Below the pieces are notes generated by a model that saw only the letters and a program-made list of their open reading frames with translations, ran no database searches and was not told the origin of the DNA. From a virus, in IMG/VR virus record IMGVR_UViG_3300047510_000217, positions 1-52,275 of that record: 52,275 nucleotides of DNA; one strand, 5' to 3'. Position 1 is the stretch's first letter; each line of letters begins with the position of its first letter. The translations under genes were made by a program, and so were the position numbers. Shown here one piece after another: positions 33,285 through 37,717 of the stretch.

Positions 33285-35060
33285 ATGGCATCCCAGAACA
33301 AACACCTTGAGCACTTAGAAGACGAGTTAATCAATTATGGTTATGGTGGATACGTCGCTTCTAAAGACCTCATTCAGAATTTTCTTGACGAGCTTGGCGG
33401 TCGTCCTACTGGTAATGTAACGGTTACGACGAAGTGGGATGGCGCTCCTGCTGTGGTTTGTGGCATCGACCCAGAGAGCAAGCAATTTTTCGTCGGCACT
33501 AAATCGGTATTTAATAAGAAAGAACCTAAGGTCAATTTCACTGAAGAAGATATTGATAAGAATCATGGTGAAATTCCTGACCTCGCAAAAAAACTTAAGT
33601 ATTGTCTGAAGTATTTTGCTGAGTTGAATATCAAAGGAATCATTCAGGGAGATCTTCTTTTCACTGATGAAGATGTAGTAACTAAGACTATTGATGGCGA
33701 GCATTACTATACGGCAACTCCTAATACGTTGACGTATGCTTGGCCTGCTGATAGCGACTTAGGTAAGGCAGTAAACACTGCTAAGATTGGCGCTGTATTT
33801 CACACTTACTACAGCGGCACTGGTCCTATCAATACTCTCAACGCTGGTTTTGGTGTCAGTCAATTCAATTTGAAATCTACTCGCAATGTCTTTTTGGCAT
33901 CTGCGACGATGGATAATATCAGCTCTAAGTCTGGTTTAACTAATGTTGAAGAACGCACTCTCAAATCGGTGATTGCTGTAGCAGAACGCAATGCTTCTGC
34001 TGCTAAACCTTTTATTGAAATGGTGGCACACGAAGCAACCAAGCAGTTCACGCTTGGTTATACGATGAAGCGTTTTACTAACAGCTATGTGAAGGAAGGG
34101 CAGAAAATTAACAATGTCAATATTTTCATCACCAAGTTTGAAGCAGCATTCAAAAAGTCTCTGGTTGAAAAGGTTGAGAGTCTGAAGTCGGAGAAGTCTA
34201 AGAACGAATACCGCGATAAGTTAGCATCTGGTCTTCAGTTCCTTGAAGATAACAAGCGAGCATTCAAGGCATTCATTGTTATCTATAATTCTTTTACCAA
34301 CGCTAAGAATCTAATCAACAATAAACTTGCTGGTCTAAGCGATACCAAAGTATTCCTGCGTAGCGGTGATAACTTTGTTGTGACGAAGCCTGAGGGTTTC
34401 GTTGCTATCGTTGATGGTAAGGCAGTAAAGATTGTTGACCGCTTGGAGTTCTCCCGTGCCAACTTCACGCTAGAGAAGTCGTGGCGCCCTCCTACCACTG
34501 AGGGTGCTAAGGTTGCTGCGTTTACTTTCGGGCGCTTCAATCCCCCTACGACGGGGCATGAGCTGCTGATAAATAAGGTTAAGGAGTTTGCCGCTGGCAA
34601 CGACTACTTTGTTTTTCCTAGTCATACTACTGACAAGAAGGGGAAGAATCCTTTGACTGCAGAGCAAAAAGTTACGTTGATGAAAATGATGTTTCCTTCT
34701 CACAAGGATTCCGTTATTTTTGATGCTGATGTTAGGGATGCTATTAAGGCATTGAAGTGGTTGGAAGATAAAGGATATACGGATGCCATCTTTGTTGTTG
34801 GTTCTGATCGTGTTCCAGCATTCCAATTCATCAAACAATATAATGGTAAAGATTACAATATGAATACTGTTGAGATTAGAAGTGCTGGTGAGCGTGACCC
34901 TGATGCAGATGATGTATCTGGTATGTCTGCAAGTAAAGTGAGAAAAGCAATTGTTGAGGGAGACTTTGATGTTGTTGCTAGTGCTTTACCTAACTCAGTG
35001 AAGAATGATGCCAGCTTTAAAAAGATGTATATTCAAGCAGTCTTATCGGGGATGTCATAA
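33285..35060 (+). CDS. Ligase-like nucleotidyltransferase fused to an NMN-adenylyltransferase-like domain
   Basis: 591 residues. Residues 1-395 contain, in order, TTKWDGAPAV (K50, like ligase motif I KxDG), IIQGDLLF (119-126, like motif III) and PEGFVAIVDGKAVKIVDR (369-386, like motifs IV and V with K382); a helical insert lies at about 230-340. Residues 408-591 are a nucleotidylyltransferase: FTFGRFNPPTTGHELL (a TxGH variant of HxGH ending at H425), VVGSDRVPAF and GMSASKVRKAI. The C-terminal part could make NAD from NMN or transfer CMP; the N-terminal part corresponds to a cyanophage family of unknown function. Ligase relationship is inferred from motifs. Confidence 0.7.
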   Translation: MASQNKHLEHLEDELINYGYGGYVASKDLIQNFLDELGGRPTGNVTVTTKWDGAPAVVCGIDPESKQFFVGTKSVFNKKEPKVNFTEEDIDKNHGEIPDLAKKLKYCLKYFAELNIKGIIQGDLLFTDEDVVTKTIDGEHYYTATPNTLTYAWPADSDLGKAVNTAKIGAVFHTYYSGTGPINTLNAGFGVSQFNLKSTRNVFLASATMDNISSKSGLTNVEERTLKSVIAVAERNASAAKPFIEMVAHEATKQFTLGYTMKRFTNSYVKEGQKINNVNIFITKFEAAFKKSLVEKVESLKSEKSKNEYRDKLASGLQFLEDNKRAFKAFIVIYNSFTNAKNLINNKLAGLSDTKVFLRSGDNFVVTKPEGFVAIVDGKAVKIVDRLEFSRANFTLEKSWRPPTTEGAKVAAFTFGRFNPPTTGHELLINKVKEFAAGNDYFVFPSHTTDKKGKNPLTAEQKVTLMKMMFPSHKDSVIFDADVRDAIKALKWLEDKGYTDAIFVVGSDRVPAFQFIKQYNGKDYNMNTVEIRSAGERDPDADDVSGMSASKVRKAIVEGDFDVVASALPNSVKNDASFKKMYIQAVLSGMS

Positions 35061-36826
35061 TGACATTTGATTTAAGAAGAGAACAAAGAACCATTGATGA
35101 ATATATTGATATTGATATTCCAGCAACCAGAATCAGAAGAATGCTGAGGCTGGTTCACGTTGCTGCTGGGTATGCTTTCAATAAACAATATGGTGAAGTG
35201 AATGGATTTGATTTTCAGTTAGAGGGTGGGAGTAACGAGATTGAAGAAGATGGAAGCCTTATGGAAATTGAGGCAGTCATCAAAAGTAAATCCAGCATAG
35301 TTCATACTTACAAGATGACCTGTGATAATGGAAATGAAAAGTATGGTGATTTGAATTTGAGAATACCTAGAGCAACTTTTATTGAAAACATGATGGAGTT
35401 TATTAACTCAAGACAAATTAAGAATAAACTTCATATCAGAGAAATAAAGTTGCATACTTTATCAGGTGGTAAAAATCCAACTCTCCAAATTAAATCTGTT
35501 TATTCGTATAAGGAATTAGATGCAAAAGGAAGAGTAGCACCAAAAAGCACAAATTTAAATTTTAATTTTTCCATGAAATATGCTGGTAGTTCAACTGGCA
35601 GCAAAAAATTAGAATCATTAAAACCAAAAGATGTAAAACCAAAGATTACAGATACGTGGTTGACACCTCAAGAGTTTTATAACAATGTAATTTCTTTTAT
35701 TAATAGCACAGATTTTCCATCTAGTAATATAATTCTTAGAAAAGATTATGTTGATGCTATTACAGATTCGTATAGAAATACTGGTTTAGATGATAGGTTG
35801 GGTATTGCCCCTGACTTATCATCTGAATTTTTTGAAATTCTTTCAGTTCTTAAATTATCTAAGTTGCTGATGAATAACAATGCAAATATAAAACACATAA
35901 TAGGATGGCCTGAAGGAGAATCAATTAGTAGCGTGGAAATATATTTACCAGAAGCTGCCAATGAAGCATTGATTGATTATAAAATAGCAGTCAATGGGAA
36001 TAAAACTACTCCACTTAAGATTAGTGTTAAGTCTAAGGTTAGGGGTTCTTCTACTGCCACAGTTAAATTTACAACTGCTTTCTCTAATGAGGCAGAAGTT
36101 CATAAATGGTTTAAAAGTATTATATCTACAGCAAGAGCAAATCAAATAGGTCAACGAATGATTGCTTCGTCTGCTATGGAATACAACAAGTATTCTAAGA
36201 AAGGAACTTTGTATCCTATAAGAGCACTGAGAAAATTATTTGCTGGTTCTAAAAAATCTGAAGTAAAGAAGGATTTTAATTCTACGTTAGATACATCTTC
36301 CATGAAACCAGAAGAGTGGATAAAATTTATCACATTACTTGATAATAAAATAACAAGTGTTTCTAAAAATTATGCTCCAATAGATGATATAATTATTGAT
36401 ACCGAGTTATTAACAAAGGCAAAAAATTTCATAGCAGATAATTTATTCAAAGGTAATTCTACTAAAACAAAAATATTAAAACAATTAATATCTGCGTCTG
36501 TAGCAGAAGCAGAAAAGAAAAGTCCCAATAGAAAATATCCATTTGCTTTAAATAATGTCGCTTTGCTTTGCGAAAGAGTTTTGGTGAAAACTTCACAACA
36601 ATCTGGATCTTCTCAATTTAACTTTTATAAATTATTTTATGAGCAAGTGTTGGCAAAAGAAAGCGTGGTTTATTCTGTGACCAGTGAAGATACTATTGGT
36701 GGAGAAGCTAGACTCAAATATGATTTTATTAGCACCAAAAATTTCTCGCAATACAAACAATGGATTGAATTGCGAAGTAAAAATTATGCAAACAATATGC
36801 AAGACGCACTAGGGATGGGAGTATGA
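35060..36826 (+). CDS. Large protein of unknown function
   Basis: 588 residues; the ATG overlaps the previous stop (TAATG), so the two are coupled. Not recognised. The N-terminal 180 residues look alpha/beta (PATRIRRMLRLVHVAAGYAF, GFDFQLEGGSNEIE); residues 285-340 include IDYKIA and PLKISVKSKVRG, where D306 and S322-x-K324 could be a variant PD-(D/E)XK site. The C-terminal half is helical and Lys/Asn-rich. The gene is more A+T-rich than its neighbours. Conserved hypothetical at best; nuclease activity is speculative. Confidence 0.65.
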   Translation: MTFDLRREQRTIDEYIDIDIPATRIRRMLRLVHVAAGYAFNKQYGEVNGFDFQLEGGSNEIEEDGSLMEIEAVIKSKSSIVHTYKMTCDNGNEKYGDLNLRIPRATFIENMMEFINSRQIKNKLHIREIKLHTLSGGKNPTLQIKSVYSYKELDAKGRVAPKSTNLNFNFSMKYAGSSTGSKKLESLKPKDVKPKITDTWLTPQEFYNNVISFINSTDFPSSNIILRKDYVDAITDSYRNTGLDDRLGIAPDLSSEFFEILSVLKLSKLLMNNNANIKHIIGWPEGESISSVEIYLPEAANEALIDYKIAVNGNKTTPLKISVKSKVRGSSTATVKFTTAFSNEAEVHKWFKSIISTARANQIGQRMIASSAMEYNKYSKKGTLYPIRALRKLFAGSKKSEVKKDFNSTLDTSSMKPEEWIKFITLLDNKITSVSKNYAPIDDIIIDTELLTKAKNFIADNLFKGNSTKTKILKQLISASVAEAEKKSPNRKYPFALNNVALLCERVLVKTSQQSGSSQFNFYKLFYEQVLAKESVVYSVTSEDTIGGEARLKYDFISTKNFSQYKQWIELRSKNYANNMQDALGMGV

Positions 36827-37113
36827 AATCACTTAAAGAACTACTGGCACAATCAAAACAAAAATCCTACATGCTCGGCAATGTATTTGCTGAGGGTGAT
36901 TGGGTAGAAAATAATCTAGGTGAAGTGGGAAAGATTCATAGACGTGGTGTTAACTATGTGATTGCTGTAACTAATGAAGGCAAAATGTTTCGTGCATGGG
37001 TGAAGGATATCAAAGAACATTGTGGATGCGAAACCCCCAAAAAAACAACTGCCAAGGATACCATCAAGACTTTTATAAATAAAAATAAAAGAAAAAAGAC
37101 CAATGACAATTGA
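36823..37113 (+). CDS. Small SH3/KOW-like protein
   Basis: 96 residues, ATGA overlap with the previous gene. The core GNVFAEGDWVENNLGEVGKIHRRGVNYVIAVTNEGKMFRAWVKDI is a module seen in many cyanophage proteins and has the strand-turn pattern of an SH3/KOW barrel. The C-terminus is Lys-rich. The 3' end overlaps the next gene by 11 bases and carries a late promoter. Function unknown. Confidence 0.7.
   Translation: MKSLKELLAQSKQKSYMLGNVFAEGDWVENNLGEVGKIHRRGVNYVIAVTNEGKMFRAWVKDIKEHCGCETPKKTTAKDTIKTFINKNKRKKTNDN
37074..37081 (+). promoter_or_regulatory. Perfect late promoter (TATAAATA)
   Basis: Exact T4 consensus within the end of the preceding gene; predicted start about 37087, 16 bases before the ATG at 37103. 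Confidence 0.8.
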
Positions 37114-37717
37114 CGAATTTTCTAAACATCTCATTGAACGAGCAGTTGCCAAATTGGATGAAGGCAAAAACAAAGAAGGCAAAGAGCAAGGTGCCGATGG
37201 CAAAGCTTGCTGGAAAGGTTACAAGTATGCTGGCACTGAGAATGGTAAAGACAAGTGTGTGAAGTCTGAAGAGATTGAGCACATCGAAGAAAGAAAAGAC
37301 ATGCCTGGCAATCAAGAAAAGATTGATGCCAACAAAAATGGTAAAGTAGATGCTCATGACTTTGCTTTACTTCGTGCCAGAAAAGGTAAGAAGTCGGTTA
37401 AGGAAATGTGGGAGAAGGCAGCAGAAGTTGCTGAAGGAAAGAAGGTAGAAATTGAAGTCATGCCTAATGTTGATACTCCAAACGATCCAGAACCACCTAA
37501 GAGTCAGGACGATTTGAAGAAGAAGGAAAAGAAAAAGCAAGCAAACGAGCACGTTGAATTAGAAGAAAAGAAACTTTCAAAAGCAGAGACAGCCAAGAAA
37601 GAAAAGTTTGTTAAAGGAATGAAGAAGAAGTTTGGTTCTTTTAAATCAAAGTATGGCGATAAAGCAAAAGAAGTGATGTATGGAACTGCTACTTCAATGG
37701 CAAAGAAGGCAGCATAA
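37103..37717 (+). CDS. Modular Lys-rich protein with an EF-hand-like motif
   Basis: 204 residues, highly charged. Modules: GADGKACWKGYKYAGTENGKDKCVK (30-54, recurrent in cyanophage proteins), an EF-hand or dockerin-like calcium loop DANKNGKVDAHDF, a Lys/Glu linker, and a basic C-terminal segment (KEKFVKGMKKKFGSFKSKYG). Late promoter and neighbours suggest a head- or virion-associated protein. No enzymatic motif. Confidence 0.7.
   Translation: MTIDEFSKHLIERAVAKLDEGKNKEGKEQGADGKACWKGYKYAGTENGKDKCVKSEEIEHIEERKDMPGNQEKIDANKNGKVDAHDFALLRARKGKKSVKEMWEKAAEVAEGKKVEIEVMPNVDTPNDPEPPKSQDDLKKKEKKKQANEHVELEEKKLSKAETAKKEKFVKGMKKKFGSFKSKYGDKAKEVMYGTATSMAKKAA

Follow-up and report, generated by a model that had tools for sequence, protein, structure and literature searches.

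The gene at positions 33285 to 35060 (+ strand) of the window, which is the whole 52,275-nucleotide stretch of DNA analyzed here, probably encodes a bifunctional phage enzyme in which a ligase-like DUF6267 domain is followed by a HIGH-type nucleotidylyltransferase (NTase) domain; as we read it, this would be an end-repair or counterdefense pair that is often packaged in the phage head but is here a single fusion protein produced in the cell. The window is a contig from a T4-like cyanomyovirus near Synechococcus phage S-PM2, and the gene is surrounded by the replication genes gp43, uvsX, gp41, and primase. At the coordinates originally given, it is an intact open reading frame (ORF) of 591 amino acids with an ATG start and an in-frame stop codon immediately upstream. 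In Pfam, residues 5 to 398 matched DUF6267 (PF19782; E = 2e-109) and residues 414 to 554 matched CTP_transf_like (PF01467; E = 1.3e-7, above the cut-off); PHROGs assigned the two halves to a family of unknown function and to "cytidyltransferase." The end of the N-terminal domain proposed earlier, at about residue 395, was correct, and the motifs named with it are where they were placed (K50-W-D-G53; IIQGDLLF, 119 to 126; EGFVAIV, 370 to 376; AVKIV, 380 to 384; TTGH, 422 to 425; SASKVR, 548 to 553). The features of the gene are as follows.

33285 to 34484, + strand: DUF6267 domain, residues 1 to 400, a ligase-superfamily-like nucleotidyltransferase as judged from PF19782, the AlphaFold2 model, and the RNA ligase rows of the VIA alignment
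33432 to 33443, + strand: motif I, K50-W-D-G53, with K50 the predicted nucleotide-accepting lysine; K, D, and G invariant in 90 relatives
33501 to 33503, + strand: K73, invariant, placed by eye at the probable position of T4 Rnl2 K54/R55 (FFVGTKSVF versus VTCAKRTG)
33645 to 33653, + strand: motif III-like Q121-G-D123, with Asp for the usual Glu; Q121 and D123 invariant
33801 to 33803, + strand: H173 in the probable motif IIIa strand IGAVFHTYY (model strand 168 to 177), possibly equivalent to Rnl2 D120; H173 and Y176 invariant
33933 to 34340, + strand: helical insertion in the model, residues ~217 to 352, lying after motif IIIa and before motif IV; N266 and K341 within it are invariant
34392 to 34397, + strand: motif IV, E370-G371, invariant
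34428 to 34442, + strand: motif V-like K382-I-V-D-R386, with K382 and R386 invariant; the domain ends about 15 residues further on
34506 to 35057, + strand: HIGH-superfamily nucleotidylyltransferase domain, residues 408 to 591, supported by PF01467, Foldseek matches to NadD and PPAT, and VIA
34548 to 34559, + strand: TTGH motif (422 to 425) within the HIGH-superfamily domain
34926 to 34943, + strand: SASKVR motif (548 to 553) within the HIGH-superfamily domain

The S-PM2 homologue, S-PM2d138, is also fused and 591 amino acids long, has 84 to 86% identity to the window protein, and shares its neighbors (gp43, uvsX, gp41, and mazG). In the older S-PM2 record (AJ630128.1, 103025 to 104804; locus L002), a frame break splits this gene into two coding sequences; in the newer record, the gene is whole and the break is absent. 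Because other viral contigs hold intact relatives that are 91% and 96% identical to the window protein, the fusion is not a frameshift or assembly artifact.

Fold and motif residues of DUF6267

Of the phage records searched, 471 contained DUF6267, and most of these came from cyanophages. Conservation of the domain was assessed across 90 diverse relatives aligned over 402 columns, only 24 of which are invariant; these include K50, D52, G53, K73, Q121, D123, H173, Y176, N266, K341, E370, G371, K382, and R386. The probability that K50, D52, G53, D123, E370, G371, and K382 would all fall within the 24 invariant columns was 1e-9 (hypergeometric), a value that ignores the general conservation of K, D, G, and E. 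The ordered pattern KxDG...G[DE]...EG...K occurred in 88 of the 90 relatives, in 13 of 9,000 shuffled copies, and in none of 502 other ORFs of at least 300 amino acids. As judged from the alignment, the presence of these residues in DUF6267 is not due to chance, and the proposed order of nucleotidyltransferase motifs I, III, IV, and V is borne out across the family.

The AlphaFold2 model of DUF6267 is confident (mean pLDDT, 92.8; pTM, 0.88). Plain Foldseek comparison of this model with the PDB gave no significant match; VIA alignment was applied as a second look at Foldseek's 1,000 best PDB chains, and within this set, rows 1 to 17 were all RNA ligases (Z, 8.7 to 6.8; 169 to 195 residues aligned). 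The Naegleria gruberi RNA ligase (5cot and 6vt3) aligned with a Z of 8.3 to 8.7 and an rmsd of 3.5 to 3.8 Å over ~182 residues, and other rows included TbREL1 (Z, 7.8), T4 Rnl2 (7.1), and T4 Rnl1 (7.0). After row 17 came a tRNA ligase, archaeal RNA ligases, and many DNA ligases, and from rank 18 unrelated helical proteins were intermixed (Z ≤ 6.2). The ligases were separated from other folds by VIA alone, not by plain Foldseek. A Z of about 8.7 is modest when taken alone; joined to the invariant, correctly ordered motif residues, it makes the likeness in the model convincing. The original prediction had suggested a ligase-like N-terminal domain and the comparison of a predicted structure with ligases, and both the fold, which among the chains examined aligns best to RNA ligases, and the invariant residues support it.

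DUF6267 has in common with the Naegleria ligase, T4 Rnl2, and TbREL1 the adenylyltransferase-domain fold (178 to 195 residues; Z, 7.1 to 8.7) and the motif order I, Ia, III, IIIa, IV, and V, at an identity of 8 to 15%. It differs from them in having Asp at motif III, a probable His at IIIa, K-x-V at motif V, and a helical insertion of ~135 residues (model helices at 220 to 249, 257 to 270, 278 to 299, 303 to 322, and 324 to 351), and in lacking both the N-terminal OB domain and the Rnl2 C-terminal domain. The motif residues of T4 Rnl2, which we take to be K35, K54/R55, E99, D120, E204, and K225, were matched by eye to K50, K73, D123, H173, E370, and K382, respectively; if this equivalence holds, then the motif III Glu would be Asp, the motif IIIa Asp would probably be His, and the second motif V Lys would be Val. 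The invariant Asp at the presumed motif III position is a conservative change from the usual Glu, and motif V reads K382-x-V384, with V384 nearly invariant in the 90 relatives, rather than the K-x-K of Rnl2. Unfused DUF6267 relatives terminate ~15 to 20 residues past motif V, and neither an OB-fold nor an Rnl2-type domain follows that motif in DUF6267 or in these relatives.

Membership of DUF6267 in the Rnl2 family was considered and rejected on the basis of motif V, the missing Rnl2 C-terminal domain, and profile comparison. HHalign gave a probability of <1% against T4 Rnl2 (score of 16.7 versus a mean of 15.5 for shuffled columns), excision of the helical insertion likewise gave nothing above shuffled columns, and HMM searches of PDB sequences with DUF6267 profiles returned chance and coiled-coil matches only. 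Since the Rnl2 profile match is at chance, DUF6267 would be a separate, diverged family that works like a ligase nucleotidyltransferase domain. Taken together, the alignment and the model make it very probable that DUF6267 is a diverged nucleotidyltransferase of the ligase superfamily, one that carries a helical insertion, has changes in motifs III, IIIa, and V, and lacks a downstream domain; the ligase reading is supported by the fold and the invariant residues, with departures in those three motifs and in what follows motif V.

Ligases and capping enzymes have their fold and motifs in common, and DUF6267 might move a nucleotide, perhaps its partner's dinucleotide, to RNA or DNA 5' ends with no joining. 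Such a role would suit a motif V that is not followed by an OB-fold or Rnl2-type domain, as well as a fused partner yielding a nucleotide product, which is unusual for ligases. We consider it very unlikely: the nearest solved folds are all RNA ligases, and no capping partner, such as a triphosphatase or methyltransferase, was recognized beside DUF6267.

The C-terminal nucleotidylyltransferase domain

Within the C-terminal domain, T422, G424, H425, S548, and R553 are kept in at least 97% of 64 relatives. The model used for this domain, and for this domain only, came from an alignment in which the ends of unfused DUF6267 proteins were misplaced on the NTase region. Foldseek matched it to NadD and PPAT (E ~ 1e-4), and VIA gave a tie between PPAT (Z, 13.9), NadM (13.8), and NadD (13.6). 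The domain has in common with these enzymes both the fold and the (H/T)xGH and S-x-S-x-x-R motifs; the window family has its own, family-specific versions (GRFNPPTTGH and RDPDA..GMSASKxR), and the Nudix domain of NadM is absent from the window protein. Sequence and model thus support a HIGH-superfamily nucleotidylyltransferase with a NadD/NadM/PPAT-like fold. The earlier assignment as an NMN-adenylyltransferase-like domain holds at the level of nucleotidylyltransferase; NMN specificity is not established, because the three folds tie.

The further suggestion that one protein makes NAD and uses it found no direct support. In a related alternative, the C-terminal domain would make NAD or a similar dinucleotide cofactor, and DUF6267 would have lost covalent catalysis and become regulatory or nucleotide sensing. 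The NMN/NaMN adenylyltransferase fold and motifs of the C-terminal domain are consistent with this idea, as are the several changed ligase-type catalytic residues in DUF6267, and phages do encode NAD salvage (PMC9503650). We nevertheless regard it as unlikely, since K50, D52, G53, D123, E370, G371, K382, and R386 are invariant, unlike the residues of a decayed active site. Moreover, NadV accompanies NadM in every NadM phage surveyed (PMC9503650), and no NadV-like gene was seen among the scanned subset of window proteins.

Gene pairing, fusion, and neighboring genes

After near copies were removed, DUF6267 was fused to the NTase in 27 genes; in 60 further loci the NTase gene starts within 500 bp downstream of DUF6267, in 25 it lies farther downstream inside the fetched flank, and in 1 it lies upstream. 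No NTase was found within at least 3 kb of DUF6267 at 14 loci, and 26 loci were too short to be scored. On the maximum-likelihood tree, the fused state needs two separate changes, one in the S-PM2 clade and one in a clade formed by loci L053 and L184; the starred branches of the tree force these two changes, and no bootstrap tree gave a single one. Most relatives keep DUF6267 and the NTase as separate, adjacent genes, and the joining of such neighbors happened independently on at least two occasions. The two-domain fusion of the original prediction is real, and it is part of a wider pattern that the prediction missed, namely, a conserved gene pair that has been fused twice and often carries capsid-targeting-like leaders in relatives.

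In other cyanophages, the NTase protein consists of a leader, the NTase domain, and a small C-terminal domain. Two genes downstream of the fusion are relevant here.

35060 to 36826, + strand: 588-amino-acid neighbor with a D...SVK signature (family alignment, NeaL.Dy...kiSvKs), a candidate PD-(D/E)XK-like nuclease
36823 to 37113, + strand: small gene (phrog_395 match), the C-terminal domain that other cyanophages have on their leader-NTase protein, here as a gene of its own; it starts with a loosely leader-like MKSLKELLAQSK

The product of the small gene matches positions 213 to 298 of phrog_395 (E = 2e-11; compare the C terminus of S-SM1 GC190), and because this domain is a separate gene in the window, the NTase domain seems to have been moved onto DUF6267. 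In S-PM2 and its relatives, the small gene is labeled as a ribonucleotide reductase subunit or cytidyltransferase; we regard the ribonucleotide reductase label on neighboring genes as a misannotation. In other loci, the partner of the fused NTase domain is a P-loop kinase (L091) or a Pol-beta-type nucleotidyltransferase (L078). A 1,045-amino-acid protein (L136:5537-8671) combines the NTase domain with a RimK-type ATP-grasp domain and a zinc-protease-like domain.

The 588-amino-acid neighbor had no match in a Pfam search. The slot beside DUF6267 holds at least six unlike sequence clusters (for example, L003:2514-4001, L059:301-2034, and L057:2658-3944, upstream of DUF6267), and the signature D...[ILV]-S-x-K occurs in 55 of 86 ORFs upstream of DUF6267 versus 131 of 692 other ORFs. 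The genes that occupy this hypervariable position could possibly encode PD-(D/E)XK-like nucleases. A few genes of this slot have a capsid-targeting-like leader. If the signature does mark nucleases, DUF6267 might act with the adjacent protein on DNA ends, for example, in processing injected phage DNA or degrading host DNA, and both the setting among replication genes and the presence of DNA ligases in the fold list agree with such a role. The nuclease assignment is based on a short motif that often arises by chance, however, and RNA ligases outrank DNA ligases in the fold list; this alternative is, in our view, quite unlikely.

Close neighbors that carry leaders in relatives include P-loop kinases, HAD-like proteins, and an HD-domain protein. 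Leader-bearing HAD-like genes adjoin DUF6267 at L126:4544-5071, L055:1868-2491, and L137:2744-3490, and the L055 protein is a weak match to HAD_SAK_1, the HAD family found in RNA repair proteins of the "Swiss Army Knife" type. Phage RNA ligases usually have kinases and HAD-like proteins as partners (PMC7824862). We prefer sealing over capping on two grounds: RNA ligases have the folds nearest to that of DUF6267, and genes for kinases and HAD-like proteins lie nearby in several relatives. In the window, positions 37103 to 37717 encode a 204-amino-acid protein that starts loosely like a leader (MTIDEFSKHLIERA) and contains a CWKGYKYAGTENGKDKC stretch as well as a DANKNGKVDAHDF repeat of dockerin/EF-hand-like type; it may be a head protein.

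Capsid-targeting-like leaders and the proposed role

In many relatives of both halves, the conserved core is directly preceded by a leader of the pattern M-x-x-F-x-x-[FY]-[IL]-x-E (for example, MYSFKQYLNEAKNTHLEHLED). It was present in 39 of 125 DUF6267 proteins and 25 of 84 NTase proteins versus 31 of 573 other ORFs of the same loci, and in <1% of shuffles; this enrichment (P = 3e-14 for DUF6267 and 4e-10 for the NTase) is optimistic, because the ORFs are related. DUF6267 of cyanophages is mostly without a leader. T4 IPII and IPIII start with MKTYQEFIAEA, which fits the pattern and resembles the leaders of many relatives; 20 other T4 genes do not fit. The T4 ipI product, a true internal protein, starts with MKTFKEFTST and fails the strict form, which makes the pattern no more than a proxy. 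A leader is missing from the window protein, and the upstream stop codon rules one out; the T4 internal head proteins are small and have neither of its domains. In T4, this leader directs proteins into the head and is then removed (PMC5694885). Since many of the relatives carry such a leader, their enzymes are probably packaged in the head.

Published mass spectrometry data bear on this point. The cytidylyltransferase T4-GC190 was detected in S-SM1 virions (PMC3037559), and the gp154 cytidylyltransferase was detected in S-CREM2 virions (PMC10665884), whose authors caution that virion detection may reflect carry-over or copurification (PMC10665884). The S-PM2 homologue is listed among the proteins undetected in S-PM2 virions (PMC3037559). 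The leader is present in both S-SM1 GC190 (MKKFSAFLNEAE) and S-CREM2 gp154 (MKNFSSFLTEAD), the starts of the genes inspected being MKKFSAFLNEAERS and MKNFSSFLTEADEK, and among the 35 S-CREM2 genes looked at, just 2 had the pattern. Leader presence or absence therefore matches which versions of the "cytidylyltransferase" were or were not in virions. No published mass spectrometry detection of DUF6267 itself was found. S-CREM2 gp136 (L224:2302-3015), beside the terminase genes, also starts in a leader-like manner (MQTFSMFFSEDAG).

The steady pairing, the two fusions, and the shared leaders suggest that the two activities serve one process. We propose that ATP or another donor would nucleotidylate K50 and that the nucleotide would then be passed to a nucleic acid 5' end for sealing or capping; the most likely use would be the sealing or repair of broken RNA or DNA, the choice between the two targets being a guess. 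The C-terminal domain would join a nucleotide to a small phosphorylated substrate, for which NMN is one candidate, and its product may feed or regulate DUF6267. In relatives, the separate enzymes would be delivered from the head at infection as a repair or counterdefense pair. In the S-PM2 clade, the two enzymes are fused and carry no leader; the fusion protein is presumably synthesized inside the infected cell.

A broader version of this proposal, which is possible but which we hold as doubtful, is that the heads of marine T4-like phages carry, by means of leaders, a modular end-processing kit that acts at the start of infection and whose two core enzymes have become a single cell-made fusion in the S-PM2 clade. 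Besides DUF6267, which is ligase-like, and the HIGH-type nucleotidyltransferase, the kit would in some lineages include P-loop kinases, HAD phosphatases, and the variable nuclease-like protein.

In the mostly open-access literature, neither DUF6267 nor its likeness to ligases was found described, and no account turned up of cyanophage enzymes with capsid-targeting leaders; searches on cyanophage cytidylyltransferases and on RNA ligase/NMNAT fusions likewise gave nothing on the window protein. Placement in the ligase superfamily gives DUF6267, a Pfam family of unknown function, a testable chemistry, and the leader pattern offers a means to predict further head-packaged marine phage enzymes from sequence. 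If these phages inject the end-repair pair with their DNA, it would represent a new kind of injected counterdefense.
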